From NCBI RefSeq assembly GCF_025290835.2, contig NZ_JAOCQD020000002.1, positions 1,736,001-1,800,000 of the forward strand: a stretch of 64,000 nt of DNA, given 5' to 3'. Origin of the DNA: Aquabacterium sp. OR-4 (lineage in GTDB: Bacteria; Pseudomonadota; Gammaproteobacteria; Burkholderiales; Burkholderiaceae_C). The first letter of the stretch is position 1; each line of letters begins with the position of its first letter. Made by a program: the position numbers and the translations under genes. The notes below the pieces were generated by a model, which was not told the origin of the DNA, made no database searches, and saw only the letters and a program-made list of their open reading frames with translations. This document shows, one piece after another, positions 36,161-49,474 of the stretch.

Positions 36161-36237
<77 letters not shown>

Positions 36238-36248
36238 AAATCTAAAAT

Positions 36249-36285
36249 AGCCTCGCAGGTCAAAGACTTGCGAGGCTTTTTCTTT
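36249..36285 (+). terminator. Intrinsic terminator after tRNA-Met
   Basis: A 13-bp stem with one G-T pair (AGCCTCGCAGGTC against GACTTGCGAGGCT, loop AAA) is followed by TTTTCTTT. It ends the tRNA transcript just before the integrase. Confidence 0.88.
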
Positions 36286-36315
36286 GGCCGGGGTATCCAC
36301 CTAGGGTATCCACTT

Positions 36316-38142
36316 TTGGCCGCCAAGCCCGCTCGACTCGCCCGCAACCGACACGGCACCTTCACCTTCCGGTGGATCGTGCCGGTGCCTCTGCGCGAGC
36401 GCGTGGGCGCGCGCCGCGAGATCAGGGTCTCCCTTCGCACGAAGGACTGCCGGACAGCACGCATCCTCGCGCTCGAGCTCAACTTAGAACTCGAACGACT
36501 GCGCGCCGCCATGTCCAAGGACCCTGCCGCCGATCTCCGGCACCTGATCACCCCGCTCAACCTCAAGCTGCCGGGCGGCATCGAAGCCGAGATCAAGGAC
36601 GACAACGACCTCCGCCTCTTCCAGAGCTTCCTGACGCAGAACGGCGACCTGCGCGACGCGCTGATGCAGGCCATCCGCCGCGGCGAAGATCCCAGCCAGG
36701 CGATGGCCAGCCTCGTGCAGGATCTCAAGCAGGCCGCCAGCGGCGCTCACCGCGTCGCTCGCCCGACGCCGATGGTCGAGGCCATCCAGCAGTTCGTCGC
36801 TGCCGCGAACGCGGGATCGGCCGCCGAGGTCACGCGCGGCACCCGCAGCACGCCCGGCGAGAAGCTGCGCACGCTGACCCTGCTGCTCGATGATCTGGCT
36901 GCGCAAGGCCGCGACCGAGAGACCGTGTGTGTCCACGAAGTCACCCGGTCCGACGTCAAAGGTTTCGTCGATCGCTACGCCAAGCGTCCGTCGAAGGCCG
37001 CCAGGGTGGCCCTCGCAGACCGCAAGCGTGCGGCGACGTCGCCTGAAGACACCGCGGTCGAGCCGACCAAGGCAGAGCTGAAGACCCTCAACGCGCGCAC
37101 GATCAAGAAAGCGCTTGGCCACCTCCAAGACTTTTTCGTCCAGGCGCTGGCCAACGACTGGATCGCCATCAGCCCGATCGACGACGCCTTCGACCGAGCC
37201 ACCGCGCAGTACCGCGTGATCTCCAGCAAGGAGAAGAAGTCCAACCACTACGACCTCTTCGATGAAGCCGAGATCCAAGGCATCTTCGAACCGCGGCGCT
37301 ATCTGCGCAACCTGAACGCGGCGGATGACTTCTGGGCGCCGCTGCTGGCGCTCTTCAGCGGCGCACGCGCGGGAGAACTCGTCGGCCTGCGCGTGGCCGA
37401 CATCGTGCTCGACGCGCCATCGCAGCTGTGGGTGATCAACATCACCGAGGAGCTCAACGACAGCGACGGGCCCAAGACCCAGAACTCCGTCCGCAGGATT
37501 CCCATCGCGTCGGCGCTCGTCGAACTCGGCTTCCTGGCCTACGTCGAGAAGCTGCGCCTGGCCGGCGCACAGGCGCTGTTTCCGCATCGCCCGATGAACA
37601 AGACGCGGAAGAACGATCCCTCGAAGCACCTCTCCCGCGTGTACTCGGAGCATCTGCGCGACTGCGATCTGAAGACCGCCAAGAAAGTGTTCCATTCGTT
37701 CAGGCACACCGCCATCACGCGCATGCACGTGCGCGGGGTGCCGGTCGGCGACGCTGAACTGATCGTCGGCCACGCATCGCAGGACACCGAGCTTCGGCTG
37801 CAGGCAGGGCGTGGCGCCGCTGGGAATCGCGGCAACGCGACGCACCTCGATACCTACGTCGATGCGGCGGCTTTTGCCGACAACGACAAGCCGCTGATGT
37901 TGCGACTGCGCGAGCATGTCGATCGCTGCCTCACCTTCGGCATCGACTTCGCAGGCCTGAAAGAGGCTGCGGCCATCGTCCAAGAACTCACTGTCTTGGA
38001 AGGGAAGCGGTGGAAGTCGGGCTGGCACGCCAACAGCCACAAGGTGGCGCAGACGATGACGGAGCGGGTCGCCGGCGCCTGCGGCCGACCGGCCGACGCC
38101 GCGTCGCCGGCCCCTGCGGAACCCGGCACCGCAGCGGCCTGA
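36316..38142 (+). CDS. int: Tyrosine-type site-specific integrase
   Basis: Likely catalyses integration and excision of the element at tRNA-Met. It is about 608 residues: an N-terminal segment like DUF6538 integrases (ARNRHGTFTFRWIVPVPLRE), a SAM-like arm, and a catalytic domain with Arg in FSGARAGELVGLRV, His-x-x-Arg in HSFRHTAITRM, VGHAS, and a Tyr near THLDTYVD. No ATG precedes the conserved N-terminus; TTG at 36316 is proposed because AGGG lies about 10 bases upstream, while a TTG at 36268 lies inside the terminator stem. A 10-bp direct repeat GGGTATCCAC (36291 and 36304) precedes it. Confidence 0.87.
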   Translation: MAAKPARLARNRHGTFTFRWIVPVPLRERVGARREIRVSLRTKDCRTARILALELNLELERLRAAMSKDPAADLRHLITPLNLKLPGGIEAEIKDDNDLRLFQSFLTQNGDLRDALMQAIRRGEDPSQAMASLVQDLKQAASGAHRVARPTPMVEAIQQFVAAANAGSAAEVTRGTRSTPGEKLRTLTLLLDDLAAQGRDRETVCVHEVTRSDVKGFVDRYAKRPSKAARVALADRKRAATSPEDTAVEPTKAELKTLNARTIKKALGHLQDFFVQALANDWIAISPIDDAFDRATAQYRVISSKEKKSNHYDLFDEAEIQGIFEPRRYLRNLNAADDFWAPLLALFSGARAGELVGLRVADIVLDAPSQLWVINITEELNDSDGPKTQNSVRRIPIASALVELGFLAYVEKLRLAGAQALFPHRPMNKTRKNDPSKHLSRVYSEHLRDCDLKTAKKVFHSFRHTAITRMHVRGVPVGDAELIVGHASQDTELRLQAGRGAAGNRGNATHLDTYVDAAAFADNDKPLMLRLREHVDRCLTFGIDFAGLKEAAAIVQELTVLEGKRWKSGWHANSHKVAQTMTERVAGACGRPADAASPAPAEPGTAAA

Positions 38143-39206: not shown

Positions 39207-39319
39207 AGCCAAGCTCTCGCGATGACCGGCCAGCCTGGCCAAACCTCGCCAACAACAGTGATGACATGGCGACATGCCGGCATGAAGGCGGCGTTGCATC
39301 GTGGGGGCGGTCATGCTGA
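39203..39319 (+). CDS. Possible 38-aa coupled small ORF
   Basis: The ATG overlaps the stop of the upstream recombinase (ATGA), and its stop overlaps the start of parA. The product is polar with no recognisable motif. The two-sided overlap suggests translational coupling, but the stretch also contains GTGATGACATGG and GACATG repeats that may be a DNA site, so the coding potential is doubtful. Confidence 0.3.
   Translation: MKPSSRDDRPAWPNLANNSDDMATCRHEGGVASWGRSC
39258..39269 (+). promoter_or_regulatory. GTGATGACATGG motif upstream of parA
   Basis: This 12-mer recurs exactly, on the opposite strand, at 60074-60085 beside the 8-bp repeat array. Further GACATG copies follow it at 39271. It may be a binding site for an element-encoded partition or relaxosome protein. 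Confidence 0.35.
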
Positions 39320-39957
39320 AACTCGCCGTTTTCTCTCAAAAGGGCGGCGCCGGAAAGTCCACGATCGCCGTGCACGTCGCGGTCGCGGCGGCGCGGTCGA
39401 TGAAGGTGATCCTAATCGACGCGGACCCCCAAGGCACGGTGGCCAGCTGGGCCCAGGACCGACAGGCCACGGACCCTTTCGTCGCCCGCGTCGAGCCGTC
39501 GTCCATCACGCAGCTTCTGGAAAGCGCCGAGTCAGAGAGCTTCGACCTGGCGGTCATCGACTGCCCGCCGCACGCGGCACCCGGCACGGCCGCACTGCTG
39601 CGCGCGGCCAACCACATCGTGATCCCGACGCAACCGACGATGCCCGACCTCTCGGCCACCGCCCGCTCGGTGGCCCTGGCTCGATCCGCCGGCCGGGGCT
39701 ACTCCTTCGTGGTGAACCGCGCGCCCACCCGCGCTCCGGAAGTCATGCAGGCCATCGAGGCGCTGGGCGGCGGCGGACGGGTGGCGCCGGTGGTGATCGG
39801 TGACCGCAGGGCTTACTCGCGCGCGCTGACGGCTGGCCTTGCGGTGACCGAGTTTGCGCCCGGCAGGTCGAAAGCCGCCACCGAGATCAACGTCTACTGG
39901 GATTGGTTGTACGAACACATGAAGGAACAAGCATGGCAAACGCCGCAAGCAGCCTGA
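39313..39957 (+). CDS. parA: ParA family partition ATPase
   Basis: A 214-residue ParA/MinD-type ATPase for keeping the element in dividing cells. It has the deviant Walker A KGGAGKST (10-17), LIDADPQG, the switch IDCPPHAAPG, and a C-terminal helix. It is of the small type without an N-terminal DNA-binding domain, as in plasmid type Ib systems. The ATG at 39313 was chosen over GTG 39301 because GGGGGCGG then lies just upstream. The next gene overlaps its end by 25 bp and probably encodes its centromere-binding partner. Confidence 0.88.
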   Translation: MLKLAVFSQKGGAGKSTIAVHVAVAAARSMKVILIDADPQGTVASWAQDRQATDPFVARVEPSSITQLLESAESESFDLAVIDCPPHAAPGTAALLRAANHIVIPTQPTMPDLSATARSVALARSAGRGYSFVVNRAPTRAPEVMQAIEALGGGGRVAPVVIGDRRAYSRALTAGLAVTEFAPGRSKAATEINVYWDWLYEHMKEQAWQTPQAA

Positions 39958-42028: not shown

Positions 42029-43114
42029 ATGATGGATCCGCCTGAACCTCTCGTCGCCACCGCACCGATGAACGACGCTGCGGCCCTGCATGCAGGCGTT
42101 GGTGCCGGCGCGCATCGCAGCGCCCGGCTTGACCAGGCGGTGCGCGGCGTTGCCCGAGCGGCGATGAAGCGCGGGGAGAAGGTTGTCCAGATCCGGACCA
42201 CGATCAAGCTTGGCCAGGCCCAGCGTAGCGAGAAGCCGAAGGCGTCAGCGCCGACGGTGCTGCTGTTGGACCCCAGGCAGATCGATGTGTCGCGCTGGTT
42301 CAACCGGCACGACGAGAGCTACCGCAGCGACGCATTCCAAAACCTCAAAAGGAGCATCCAACATGATGGTGAAAACCACGTCCCTGTCCTCGTCCGCGCC
42401 CTGCCCTCGGGCCGCAGCGGCACTGCGCAGCCACGCTACGAACTGGTCTACGGCCATCGGCGCCGCCAGGCTTGCTTGGAGCTCGGCCTGCCCGTTCGCG
42501 CAATCGTCGAAAAGCTCGCCGAAGGGGACTTGGTAAGGCGGGCCCACGCCGAGAACAGGGACCGGGCGCCCCTGTCTGCCTATGAAGCTGGCCTGTTCTA
42601 CAAGCAGCTGATGGATGCTCAGCTGTACAGCAGCCAGCGCCAGATGGCGGAAGCCCTGGGCATCGACCAAGCCGACGCCGGCCGGAAGATGTGGTTAGCT
42701 GGGATGCCCGCCGATCTGATCGCGGTCTTCCGGAACCCGGTGGAGATCGGCTGCGACGATGCAAAGCGGCTGCGTGCAGCTTGGACGCAGGATGCCGAGG
42801 GCCTACTGCACCGCGCGCGCGGTCTGCTGGAAGTAGACGGGCCACTGCCAGCCAGGCAGGCCATTGTGAGGCTGGTGCCCCGGCGCCTTGCCGTGGGTGA
42901 TGGAGGCTCCATCACCCAGGCCGATCAACCTGCCCCGGCTGCCGTCGATGCACAGACCAGAGCCATCGTCGAGATTCAGTCCTCGGGGCCCAGTGCGGTG
43001 ACGCTTCGGGTCCACGCCGGCCTGTCCAAGTCCGACTGCGAAGCCCTGGTCGCCCAAGTGACTTTGTTCTTGCACAAGCGGCGAAGCGACCGGTCGATCT
43101 CTGCGGCGCAATGA
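42029..43114 (+). CDS. parB: ParB family partition protein, start codon at an IS66 junction
   Basis: A 361-residue ParB-fold protein. The ParB N-terminal region has VSRWFNRHDESYRSDAFQNLK and the nucleotide-binding-box-like VYGHRRRQACLELG, then a helix-turn-helix (SQRQMAEALGIDQADAGRKM) and a C-terminal domain for dimerisation. The ATG lies inside the IS66 target duplication, so the original leader is now 1.7 kb away. Without the IS the upstream frame stays open to about 40,220, so the native N-terminus may have been longer. An IS-borne promoter, if any, would now drive it. Confidence 0.8.
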   Translation: MMDPPEPLVATAPMNDAAALHAGVGAGAHRSARLDQAVRGVARAAMKRGEKVVQIRTTIKLGQAQRSEKPKASAPTVLLLDPRQIDVSRWFNRHDESYRSDAFQNLKRSIQHDGENHVPVLVRALPSGRSGTAQPRYELVYGHRRRQACLELGLPVRAIVEKLAEGDLVRRAHAENRDRAPLSAYEAGLFYKQLMDAQLYSSQRQMAEALGIDQADAGRKMWLAGMPADLIAVFRNPVEIGCDDAKRLRAAWTQDAEGLLHRARGLLEVDGPLPARQAIVRLVPRRLAVGDGGSITQADQPAPAAVDAQTRAIVEIQSSGPSAVTLRVHAGLSKSDCEALVAQVTLFLHKRRSDRSISAAQ

Positions 43115-45890: not shown

Positions 45891-46096
45891 AGCAGGAAAG
45901 TCTCTGCTGCAGCAGGCGTTCCCAACCCCGATCACGAGGGCACATCTCGCGCCATGCCATCAAGCCGCTGCCTGCCAGCCTTTCATGCGGGGAGGTACCA
46001 AGACAGTGCGTCGGCGCCCGCGTCATGAAGCCGTCACGAACTGACCAGACCATGTAGGCATCACATGTAAGCGTTGCGATCAGGTGAGGCTATCGG

Positions 46097-47665
46097 GTGC
46101 AGGATCAGGCTGGGCAGAGCGATGAAGACGATGCCGAGGACGCCGGGATACCGGTGGCCCAGTACGTTCGCATGTCCACGGAGCATCAGAGGTACTCGAC
46201 TGAAAATCAGGCCGCCACGATCAGCGAGTACGCAGCCCGCCACGGGATGCGGATCGTGCGGACGTACGAGGATTCCGGCAAGAGCGGGCTGAACCTCCGA
46301 GGTCGCAGTGGTCTGCAGGCGTTGCTTCACGACGTGAAGCAACCCAATCCGAAGTTCAGTTCCGTACTGGTTTACGACGTCAGCCGCTGGGGCCGCTTCC
46401 CTGACCCCGACGAAGCCGCTGTCTATGAGCACGCGTGCAAGAGCCGCGGCATCCGGGTCATTTACTGTGCCGAGCCCTTCAACAACGACGGCTCGTTGCC
46501 GTCCACTGTGTTCATCGGCATCAAGCGCAGCATGGCGGCCGAGTACAGCCGTGAGCTTTCAGTGAAAGTGTTTGCCGGCGCCAGCAACATCGTCCGGCAC
46601 GGCTTTCGCCAAGGTGGCGTCGCCGGGTTCGGGCTGCGGCGTCAGTTGGTCGACGAGCAACAGAACGTCAAGGGGCTGCTGTCGCGCGGCGAGAAGAAGA
46701 GCATCCAGACCGACCGCGTGGTGCTGGTCCCCGGCCCGCCCGAAGAGGTGGCGGTCGTGCATCGCATCTATCGGCTCTTTCTCGAAGACTGCATGCCGGA
46801 GCGCGTGATCGCCTCCGTGCTCAACCGGGAAGGCATCCCGTCGGACGCGGGGCGCGCCTGGACGCGCGGCACGGTCCACCAGATCCTGACCAACGAGAAG
46901 TACATCGGCAACAACGTCTACAATCGCACGTCGTACAAGCTGAAGGTCCGGCACGTGCGCAACCCGCCGGACGAATGGGTGCGTCGCGACAGTGCGTTCG
47001 AAGCCATTGTTCCGATGCACATGTTCGTGCAAGCCCAGGCGATCATCGCCGCGCGCTCTCAGCATCTGGATGACGATCAGTTGCTGGACCTTCTCCGGCG
47101 GACACTGCAGAAGCACGGCGCCTTGTCCGGCATCGTCATCGATGAAGACGAGGACGCGCCGTCCAGCTCCACATATCGCAGCAGGTTCGGCTGCCTGCTG
47201 CGGGCCTACAGCCTCATCGGCTACACCCCGCGGCGCGACTATGCCTATCTGGAGATTAATCGGGCGCTACGGCGCCACCATCCCGAACTGATCGAGCAGA
47301 TGGCGGCCAACCTCGTCAGCACAGGCGGCTGGACGGTGCGTGACCCCTTGACAGACCTGCTCACCGTCAACGGCGAGTTCACCGTGTCGCTGGTGATCGC
47401 GAGATCGAAACCGACACCCGCTGGATCGCAACGGTGGCGGATCCGCTTCGACGCCAGCCTGCTGCCGGACATCACCGTCGTGGCTCGCATGGACCCCGGA
47501 AACCAGCGGGTCTTCGACTACTACGTTTTCCCAGCCATCGACTTCATTCCAGACACGTTGCCGACGCTGGAAGACAACGGCTTCACACTGGATGCCTACC
47601 GCACGGATTCGCTCGACTTCTTCTACCAAGTGGCGGGACGTGTTTCTCTGCAGGACGCCGCATGA
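46097..47665 (+). CDS. Large serine recombinase
   Basis: A 522-residue resolvase/invertase-type recombinase. The catalytic domain (about 18-165) has the nucleophile in YVRMSTEHQ (Ser27), the Arg-containing YDVSRWGRF and a long helix. A recombinase domain (HGFRQGGVAGFGLRR, NREGIPSDAGRAWTRGTVHQILTNEKYIGNNVYNR) and a C-terminal region of about 200 residues follow. The best start is GTG at 46097, with AGGTGAGG 8 bases upstream. It is coupled (ATGA) to two ParB-fold genes. It could move this three-gene unit or act on the whole element. Confidence 0.88.
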   Translation: MQDQAGQSDEDDAEDAGIPVAQYVRMSTEHQRYSTENQAATISEYAARHGMRIVRTYEDSGKSGLNLRGRSGLQALLHDVKQPNPKFSSVLVYDVSRWGRFPDPDEAAVYEHACKSRGIRVIYCAEPFNNDGSLPSTVFIGIKRSMAAEYSRELSVKVFAGASNIVRHGFRQGGVAGFGLRRQLVDEQQNVKGLLSRGEKKSIQTDRVVLVPGPPEEVAVVHRIYRLFLEDCMPERVIASVLNREGIPSDAGRAWTRGTVHQILTNEKYIGNNVYNRTSYKLKVRHVRNPPDEWVRRDSAFEAIVPMHMFVQAQAIIAARSQHLDDDQLLDLLRRTLQKHGALSGIVIDEDEDAPSSSTYRSRFGCLLRAYSLIGYTPRRDYAYLEINRALRRHHPELIEQMAANLVSTGGWTVRDPLTDLLTVNGEFTVSLVIARSKPTPAGSQRWRIRFDASLLPDITVVARMDPGNQRVFDYYVFPAIDFIPDTLPTLEDNGFTLDAYRTDSLDFFYQVAGRVSLQDAA

Positions 47666-48558
47666 CCCAATCGTCCCCCCACATTGAAATGATCCCGATT
47701 GCCGACATCGCGGTAGTCAACCCACGTGTCCGCAACCCGAGGATCCACAAGACCATCACCGAGAGCATTGATCAGGTCGGTCTGAAGAGGCCGATCACTG
47801 TGCGGCGCGTACCGCCGGGGCAAGGTGGTACGCCCTATGCGCTGATCTGCGGACAAGGGCGCCTGGAATCCTGCCGGATGCTGGGGCAGACCGAGATCGC
47901 CGCCTTGATCGTCGACGTCGACGAAGAGACCGGGCACGTGATGAGCATTGTGGAGAACGTTGCCCGGCGAACGCCCCGCGCCGTGGAGACGCTCGAGCAT
48001 GTGCGTGTCCTCAAGCAGCGCGGTTACACCGATTCCGAAGTGGCGGCCAAGCTCGGCTGCACGCCCTCGTGGGTCAACAACGTGGTGAACCTGCTGGAGC
48101 GCGGCGAGAAGCGATTGTTGGCGGCCACCGAAGCAGGCCACATCCCGATCAACCTGGCTGTCAGCATCTCTCGTGCGAATGGCGCCGACGCACAGCAGCT
48201 GCTGATGGATGCCTACGAAAGCGGCGAGTTGACGGGTCGAAAGATCACCGTTGTGCGTAAGATCCTCGAGCAGCGGGAGCGCAGCGGCAAAAAGGGCACC
48301 AATTCGTTTGCCAGGGGCCCGACGCGGCGCCAGATGAGCCCCGAGGACCTGGCCAAGCTGTACCAGCGCGACGTCGAAATGCACCGGCGGATCCAAAAGA
48401 AGGCCGAGTACACGCAGAAGTCGCTGCTGCTGGCCCAGCAGATCTTCAAGGAACTGTTCGCGAGCAAGGAGTTCTGCGCCCTGCTACGTTCCGAGAAGCT
48501 GGTGAGCGTGCCGCAACCCTTGGCTGAATTGGTGCCGCGCGGGGGCCTGGTGCGATGA
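47662..48558 (+). CDS. ParB N-terminal-domain protein, recombinase-linked
   Basis: A 298-residue ParB-fold protein: an N-terminal ParB domain (IEMIPIADIAVVNPRVRNPR, then CGQGRLESCRMLGQ, which replaces the GERR nucleotide box of classical ParB), a helix-turn-helix (SEVAAKLGCTPSWVNNVVNL) and a basic C-terminal half (KKGTNSFARGPTRRQMSPED). The ATG overlaps the recombinase stop and its own stop overlaps the next ATG, so the three products are made together. No parA is adjacent, so a role in recombination rather than partition is possible. Confidence 0.8.
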   Translation: MTQSSPHIEMIPIADIAVVNPRVRNPRIHKTITESIDQVGLKRPITVRRVPPGQGGTPYALICGQGRLESCRMLGQTEIAALIVDVDEETGHVMSIVENVARRTPRAVETLEHVRVLKQRGYTDSEVAAKLGCTPSWVNNVVNLLERGEKRLLAATEAGHIPINLAVSISRANGADAQQLLMDAYESGELTGRKITVVRKILEQRERSGKKGTNSFARGPTRRQMSPEDLAKLYQRDVEMHRRIQKKAEYTQKSLLLAQQIFKELFASKEFCALLRSEKLVSVPQPLAELVPRGGLVR

Positions 48559-49457
48559 GCCAGAAGCCGCCAAAGTCGGTCCGGCTGGGGTTCGAGCGGA
48601 ATTGCAAGGAGATCGCGCTCGACCTGCTCCAGCCGGGCATCCCCTTGCCGGCCGGCATCAAAGAGACCGTCAAATATCACCAGATTCGCACATCGGTGCA
48701 GGCCATCGGCCTTGTGGAGCCGATCGTGGTGGCGCACAGCCGCGAGACTGCCGGCACGTTCACGGTGCTTGACGGACGCATGCGCCTGGAGGCGCTGCGC
48801 GAATTGGCCGCGCAGCATGCGCTGTGCCTCATCTCGACGGACGACGAGGCCTACACCTACAACAAGCGCGTCAACCGACTCTCGGTGGTGCAGGAGCACC
48901 GCATGATCGTCCGTGCCGCCGAGCGGGGCGTGTCGGTCCAGCAACTGGCCGATGTGCTGGCCGTATCCCCCGGCGCCATACGGCAGCAGTTCAAGCTGCT
49001 CGATGGCATCTGCAGCGAGGCGGTGTCACTGCTGGCCGACAAGCCTGCCACCCATGGCATGTTCAAGGTGCTTAAACAGATGAAGCCGTTCCGGCAGATT
49101 GACGTGGCGCAGGCCATGATCAACCTCAACAACTACACCATCAAGTTGGCGCTGGCCATGCTGCAGGCCACACCGCCGGAACAACTGACGGAAGCGGCGA
49201 CAGCAAAGGGTCAGCGCGCCGGCCCGACGGAGGCTCTTCAGCGACTGCAGCGTGAACTGGCTGCCGTGCAGGCCGACACCAAGCTTCTGGAGGAAGGCTA
49301 CGGGCCGGCCAACCTGCAGTTGGAGATCATCAAGACCTACGTTGGCAAGACGCTGCTCGAAAACGCCGCCGTCGTCCGCTGGCTGGCCAAGACGCACGCC
49401 GAGTACCTGCAACAGCTCCAGCTGATAGCGGAGATCAAGCAACTGCCGACGCAGTAG
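48555..49457 (+). CDS. RepB/ParB-like protein, recombinase-linked
   Basis: A 300-residue protein with an N-terminal ParB-like domain (SVQAIGLVEPIVVAHSRE, LDGRMRLEALREL), a helix-turn-helix (VSVQQLADVLAVSPGAIRQQFKLL) and a long helical C-terminal part of the plasmid RepB type (YNKRVNRLSVVQEHRMIVRA; a final coiled region about 220-290). It is the third member of the recombinase operon, overlapping its neighbour by 4 bp. In rhizobial plasmids RepB partners RepA; no RepA is present here. Confidence 0.78.
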   Translation: MSQKPPKSVRLGFERNCKEIALDLLQPGIPLPAGIKETVKYHQIRTSVQAIGLVEPIVVAHSRETAGTFTVLDGRMRLEALRELAAQHALCLISTDDEAYTYNKRVNRLSVVQEHRMIVRAAERGVSVQQLADVLAVSPGAIRQQFKLLDGICSEAVSLLADKPATHGMFKVLKQMKPFRQIDVAQAMINLNNYTIKLALAMLQATPPEQLTEAATAKGQRAGPTEALQRLQRELAAVQADTKLLEEGYGPANLQLEIIKTYVGKTLLENAAVVRWLAKTHAEYLQQLQLIAEIKQLPTQ

Positions 49458-49474
49458 CGCTGCAACCCGCCGGT

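Follow-up and report, generated by a model that had tools for sequence, protein, structure and literature searches.

We analysed a three-gene operon in the genome of Aquabacterium sp. OR-4 (assembly GCF_025290835.2), within a stretch of 64,000 nucleotides (contig NZ_JAOCQD020000002.1, positions 1,736,001 to 1,800,000 of the forward strand; below, 'the window' means this whole stretch, and positions are counted from its first letter). The operon encodes a large serine recombinase, Rec, followed by two ParB-fold proteins, ParB1 and ParB2. Its parts, and the elements at its two ends, are the following.

46097..47665, + strand: Rec, large serine recombinase of 522 amino acids, with the Pfam domains Resolvase (residues 21-161) and Recombinase (residues 215-319)
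47069..47662, + strand: C-terminal region of Rec (approximately residues 325-522), with no Pfam or PDB sequence match and no recognisable zinc ribbon
47662..48558, + strand: ParB1, 298 amino acids, ParB_N and RepB-type (PF07506) by Pfam, with the nucleotide-box residues kept
48555..49457, + strand: ParB2, 300 amino acids, RepB-type with a diverged ParB fold (Pfam RepB; ParB_N below the cut-off)
49427..49472, + strand: 3' end of parB2, the putative counterpart of the right-hand breakpoint that 5 of 18 lineages have between -30 and +15 of the stop
46022..46037, + strand: a pair of GTCAY repeats, 11 bp apart, on the 5' side of Rec, from an alignment of 20 loci read by eye, without a shuffle control

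The coordinates, the Pfam domains and the presence of both motifs, CGQGRLES and LDGRMRLE, bear out the initial annotation of this DNA, which had described a large serine recombinase gene coupled by ATGA overlaps to two different ParB-fold genes. All three genes lie on the + strand, and the Rec/ParB1 and ParB1/ParB2 joints are both ATGA overlaps. In the window's whole genome the Recombinase family has a single match and the RepB family two, which are ParB1 and ParB2. The GTCAY repeats, similar in beta- and gammaproteobacterial relatives, are a possible, though weak, candidate for an operator or promoter element.

We collected relatives of ParB2 from species genomes (80 loci kept of 316 confirmed), viral contigs (45 loci), plasmids and E. 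coli. The scan comprised 133 loci, with 24 left out (short helper loci, near-duplicates and E. coli comparison stretches), and 118 loci had sufficient upstream DNA (loci and genomes are cited below by L and G numbers). The order Rec-ParB1-ParB2 on a single strand was found in 113 of these 118 testable loci, all fetched through ParB2. Two of the exceptions, L076 and L100, have the three genes in order and yet failed the spacing test owing to a long open frame; in L088 Rec is interrupted, L091 has no Rec match, and L033 has ParB2 alone. As the loci had been picked via ParB2, we ran a second test on 250 genomes of the window's order, the window's own included. Rec scored above 500 bits in 13 of them, and ParB2 matched in 12 of those 13; the search covered Rec and ParB2, and in 11 of the 12 genomes ParB2 follows Rec on one contig and strand at a distance that leaves space for ParB1, whereas in the other, G483, a ParB2 fragment is on a different contig from Rec. 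In the thirteenth genome, G540, Rec is shortened. Lone fragments were seen for Rec in G459 and G608, and for ParB2 in G555. Among 60 close relatives, three have the unit: the window's genome, G019 and G033.

Because it is conserved in 113 of 118 loci and in 12 of 13 genomes, the arrangement of the three genes is not a matter of chance. The pairwise distances of Rec, ParB1 and ParB2 correlate with one another over the 113 loci (r = 0.909, 0.900 and 0.963, without a housekeeping control). The genes keep their order across alpha-, beta- and gammaproteobacteria, mostly without ParA, and the neighbouring DNA varies, the most widespread neighbour family being present at 31 of the scanned loci. That the three genes form a conserved unit is thus well supported. 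The same-order co-occurrence across unrelated genomes that the initial annotation had proposed to look for is therefore real, and neither of the outcomes it had named as fatal, a scattering of the genes or ParA taking the place of the recombinase, was seen.

The sequence of Rec is that of an intact enzyme at its active site: Y23, R25, S27, D94, R97 and R100 are invariant in 52 of 52 aligned sequences. As in large serine recombinases, a catalytic serine domain is followed by a Recombinase domain, both over the Pfam cut-off. The zinc ribbon with coiled coil of that class was not recognised; CxxC beyond residue 320 occurs in 0 of the 52 sequences and there is no Pfam zinc-ribbon match, observations compatible with a related fold lacking zinc. 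The last 200 residues of Rec gave no match by Pfam or PDB sequence search. An AlphaFold2 model of Rec (mean predicted local distance difference test score, pLDDT, 80) matched serine integrases over approximately 315 alignment columns, and its top Foldseek matches were serine integrase complexes (9dxd, Bxb1, phiC31).

ParB1 retains the nucleotide box of ParB CTPases, with G64, G66, R67, E98, N99, A101 and R102 invariant in 45 of 45 sequences (G-x-G-R and E-N-x-A-R are kept), and it matches structures of Spo0J, Noc and ParB. In ParB2, L72, D73, G74, R77 and N103 are invariant in 57 of 57 sequences, so that the LDG, the arginine and the asparagine of the box are kept but not its Glu: aligned to Noc, ParB2 has Tyr or Phe at the Glu position of the Glu-Asn pair (Tyr-Asn in the window copy). 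The first matches of its AlphaFold2 model (pLDDT 77) are nucleotide-bound ParB and Noc. The query-normalised template modelling scores of the Rec and ParB2 models are low (approximately 0.15-0.32 for matches with E up to 0.001), and the fold claims for these two proteins therefore rest on single domains. ParB1 is probably a nucleotide-gated clamp that loads on DNA, and we infer CTP use and clamp loading by the ParB proteins.

We compared related copies of the unit for the points at which their homology ends. The window and a 20.9-kb stretch of Pseudoxanthomonas (L011) share a single match, of 80.7% identity over 46094-49458; L012 likewise gives a single match, of 80.4% over 46096-49457. L011 and L012 also part from each other at the parB2 stop (their flank is too short for the count that follows). 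Among 18 lineages having copies at least 85% identical with sufficient flank, where the identical L144/L156 copies count twice, 5 lose homology between 30 bp before and 15 bp after the parB2 stop, and 16 of 56 pair breaks within readable flank fall there. This break is not seen in the window copy itself, where homology with L010 continues for 5 kb past that point. In Stenotrophomonas, L022, L023 and L024 are 94-95% identical from about 100 bp before Rec, where all three left flanks differ; L022 diverges from the other two 2 bp past the parB2 stop, L023 and L024 stay alike for 1.4 kb longer, and some 1.5 kb downstream, though at a shifted position, L022 again has a 69%-identical stretch in common with both. 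L045, L048, L049, L051 and L052 (Porphyrobacter, Novosphingobium and relatives, about 90% alike) diverge from the last parB2 codons, except that L049 and L051 have a further 125 bp in common. In an integrative and conjugative element (ICE) of E. coli, L145 and L156 are alike as far as the parB2 stop, after which their genes differ; L149, at the same element, has neither the unit nor those downstream genes, and another gene fills the place. We read the 3' end of parB2 as a joint that often changes.

No clean empty site of the unit was found among the candidates. E. coli ET729 and strain 600 have lost parts of the unit beside IS1, the place in L149 is occupied by another gene, and in Stenotrophomonas the break was found 332 bp outside the unit. 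Two copies in genome G662 (L214/L215), tried as a move of the unit, turned out to be identical segments of at least 13.5 kb, about 67 kb apart, with an operon in each, probably a duplicated island; the two-copy case L069/L072 is also a large duplication. No terminal repeat was seen at the ends of the unit when the junctions were read by eye.

In 39 loci, the window not among them, a structured RNA of about 140 nucleotides lies 3' of parB2 (L062:4099-4215 and 38 others). Thirty-eight loci are 83-100% identical to the L062 sequence and start -1 to 49 bp past the parB2 stop; the thirty-ninth, L120, was found by a covariance model. An alignment of 32 sequences gives six helices, in which 13 of the 32 pairs vary on both strands of the helix; shuffles gave 5.8, and none of 500 reached the observed value (1 of 500 in a test of further pair types). 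Of the cells, 98.2% are paired, compared with 30-44% when slid. The structure was derived from the same, related sequences as the covariation test, which biases that test in its favour. The folding energy is ordinary (z from -0.35 to 1.57 in four folds of the RNA region), and the case for the RNA therefore rests on covariation. Rfam gave no match at the gathering score in six RNA-bearing loci, and none up to E 10 in L062:4060-4560. The RNA is a candidate new family.

The distribution of this RNA is patchy. No match to the covariance model was found in the window, L145, L146 or L152 at E up to 1, or in a scan of the window and its beta- and gammaproteobacterial relatives at E up to 0.01. The RNA is present in 33 of 113 loci, which needs 10 changes on the protein tree, and a difference in its presence coincides with a break at the parB2 stop between L041 and L045, L048 and L052, and between L085 and L089. 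Across 296 genomes of the order of the Novosphingobium genome that holds L050, the RNA occurs at 19 places in 18 genomes: 13 directly 3' of ParB2 (L050 included; some overlap the 38 above), one beside a ParB2 remnant, and five with no unit in the fetched stretch, L178 (92 bits) and L208 (51 bits) being the strongest of these and L210 lying at a contig edge. The copy at L178:9917-10054 (- strand) lies near a HipA-like gene. An exact match to a piece of the RNA lies in a viral contig (L143:14710-14734, - strand), near the end of a stretch in which the operon proteins are not found. Some records annotate a small hypothetical gene across the RNA.

The unit occurs in islands at tRNA and tmRNA genes, in an ICE, in plasmids and in phage-like contigs, and many copies are chromosomal. 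ParB2 matched 105 plasmid records, and all six that we opened have the three genes. Tn7-like or Tni-type transposition genes (TnsA/TniB/TniQ/Mu-type) stand beside the operon in three of these six plasmids, L004, L007 and L008. Of 5426 complete E. coli genomes, 652 match a Samsonia relative at about 65% DNA identity (among 20 of these matches listed, 14 comprise the recombinase part only), and 424 contain 80% or more of a 7-kb stretch that comprises the integrase and the unit. Twelve E. coli stretches were opened: nine have the three genes, one a Rec cut by IS1, one the integrase followed by IS1, and one lacks the unit. The order at E. coli ssrA is tmRNA, tyrosine integrase (frameshifted in L152), Rec, ParB1, ParB2 and then variable DNA. 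E. coli BL21 (L151:9666-13001) has the three genes without annotated defects, adjoining ssrA and a tyrosine integrase. Copies of about 91-99% DNA identity were found in Aureimonas, Nitrospirillum, Asaia, Novosphingobium and Rhizobium (L068, L080, L083, L079 and L088; one aligned piece of L068 and L088 is 88.6% identical), which indicates recent transfer between orders.

Several genes recur next to the operon in parts of this collection. A divergent gene is conserved upstream of Rec in alphaproteobacterial copies (L006:4745-5362, - strand, and 30 other loci); it has a DeoR-type helix-turn-helix in L006, the piece in L035 has no Pfam match, and it is perhaps the operon's regulator. Conserved upstream k-mers in alphaproteobacteria proved to be the start of this gene. 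Alongside a simple k-mer scan, exact palindromes with 7-bp arms were compared in 40 of the 82 loci without the RNA, and no parS-like palindrome was shared among those 40. A DUF3987 protein follows ParB2 in eight loci (for example L101:3344-4726) and a NusG-domain protein precedes Rec in seven (for example L105:6160-7230), in both cases mostly on phage-like contigs.

The surroundings of the unit in the window look like a genomic island, with the following features.

36161..36237, + strand: tRNA-Met, the probable edge of the island with the unit; a second copy of its 3' end was not found
36268..38142, + strand: tyrosine integrase of the island (DUF6538 and Phage_integrase)
39301-39957: ParA-type ATPase, in the same island, upstream of the operon
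approximately 42314-43114: third ParB, above the NCBIfam cut-off and below the Pfam cut-off

The island runs from the tRNA-Met through the tyrosine integrase, the ParA-type ATPase, an IS66 transposase, the third ParB and an XRE regulator (45639) to the unit, which is followed 3' by a YgjP-type peptidase and then by type I restriction genes. A second tRNA-Met 3' end marking the far border of the island was found neither in the window (up to 3 mismatches) nor in the genome (up to 2 mismatches). The initial annotation had noted the lack of an adjacent ParA; this is correct for the immediate neighbours but not for the island, where the ParA-type ATPase and the third ParB lie 3-7 kb upstream of the operon.

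The closest precedent is a module at ssrA islands of Dehalococcoides, in which, as described in PMC3146451, a CcrB-type serine integrase and a ParB gene belong to a single integration module made up of DsiB, DsiA, a RecF-like protein, a ParB-domain protein, Mom and an RNA-polymerase-domain protein. Both systems place a large serine recombinase and a ParB-domain gene at an island edge with variable cargo. Further points of resemblance are that the Dehalococcoides module encloses a tRNA-like RNA locus and that the 3' end of its integrase gene overlaps the attachment site. That module, however, consists of six genes and includes a second, small serine recombinase and a single ParB, whereas our unit couples Rec to two overlapping RepB-type ParB genes and has, in a subset of loci, a different RNA, 3' of parB2. 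The Dehalococcoides gene set was not matched by the Rec-ParB1-ParB2 order of the 113 of 118 loci, in a comparison that did not extend to any separate small serine recombinase.

Ccr of the staphylococcal cassette is likewise a large serine recombinase of genomic islands, and CcrB is the top NCBIfam match of Rec, although Rec stays far below the Ccr equivalog cut-offs (45.9, 36.4 and 15.9 bits against 900, 900 and 700, the first pair being that of CcrB). With the integrases phiC31, Bxb1 and SPbeta YokA (also called SprA), the best fold matches of Rec, it shares the catalytic and recombinase domains; unlike them, it has no C-terminal CxxC, and two ParB genes appear to stand where those integrases have a directionality factor. 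ParB1 and ParB2 resemble the CTP-dependent DNA clamps ParB, Noc and KorB in sequence and fold, but differ from them in that ParA is seldom near, in their coupling to a recombinase, in being tandem paralogues and in the diverged box of ParB2. ParB domains are also described in defence (PMC12839542, PMC10853773), and the portions of these papers available contain no Rec-ParB1-ParB2 operon. In open-access PMC we found no paper recognisable as describing the operon; subscription papers or bioRxiv preprints may mention it.

We tentatively read the unit as a module for site-specific recombination that belongs to genomic islands. Two ParB clamps would govern synapsis or direction for a recombinase that has no recognisable zinc ribbon. 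Rec would cut and join DNA; ParB1 would probably be the nucleotide-gated clamp loading on it; and ParB2 would probably be a diverged partner that pairs with ParB1 or reads the site. Together the two would replace the control of synapsis and direction that the zinc ribbon, the coiled coil and a directionality factor give other large serine recombinases. The site of action would probably be the 3' end of parB2, where the module joins variable neighbouring DNA and where, in one large group, the structured RNA follows; the carriers would be genomic islands, ICEs, plasmids and phage-like elements. This is the most likely of the readings considered, since the active site is intact, the ParB1 box is conserved and the joint at the end of parB2 recurs. 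Several points weigh against it. In 13 of the 18 lineages breaks lie elsewhere only, left edges vary between lineages, and selection against breaks within the operon also moves breaks to its end. Neither an empty site nor a circular or excised form of the unit was found, the window's genome holds one copy and E. coli genomes hold the unit at no more than two places, and the tyrosine integrases in the window and at E. coli ssrA could explain the movement of the islands. Finally, the Glu of the Glu-Asn pair is absent from ParB2. A stronger form of the proposal, a new type of recombination system, seems to us a very distant prospect; in it, two ParB clamps would control the target choice or synapsis of a serine recombinase, helped in the large group by a dedicated structured RNA from the 3' end of the operon.

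If Rec instead inserted the three genes themselves, the 3.4-kb unit would be a minimal self-mobile element, with its right end at the parB2 stop and its left end just upstream of Rec. The Stenotrophomonas copies, near-identical between differing left flanks and ending in L022 just past the stop, would fit this, as would the presence of the unit in L145 and L156 and its absence from L149 in the E. coli ICE; yet the place in L149 is filled by another gene, the homology of L022 resumes downstream, terminal repeats were not seen, left edges differ by lineage, and both two-copy cases are large duplications. We regard such an element as unlikely. The borders that the initial annotation had proposed to look for exist as edges of the unit, but the self-mobility it had suggested gains no empty site or excised form, and the island has a tyrosine integrase. 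Equally doubtful is a cargo module for defence, in which incoming DNA would be the target of Rec and the ParB clamps. Type I restriction genes do lie 3' of the unit both in the window and in E. coli L155, and genes of AbiV, of McrBC type and related to phosphorothioation stand near other copies, but islands commonly carry defence genes, and PADLOC gives no match for Rec, ParB1 or ParB2. Partition or stabilisation of the island is more improbable still, despite the RepB plasmid-partition domain in both ParB proteins and the many plasmid copies. A Walker-A pattern search of 116 loci, near-duplicates included, gave a ParA-like motif within 10 kb in no more than 2, one of them in the window. The parA next to parB that marks parABS systems is thus wanting, and a partition locus, which the initial annotation had also thought less likely, was rejected on this ground; moreover, a conserved recombinase active site is needless for partition, and many copies are chromosomal.

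We found no description of a function for the unit, though 424 of the 5426 complete E. coli genomes contain most of the 7-kb stretch with it and the widely used laboratory strain BL21 has all three genes. ParB CTP clamps act in chromosome segregation, nucleoid occlusion and gene regulation; if the reading as a recombination module is true, they would direct DNA recombination too, and the unit would partly account for the change of cargo in genomic islands.

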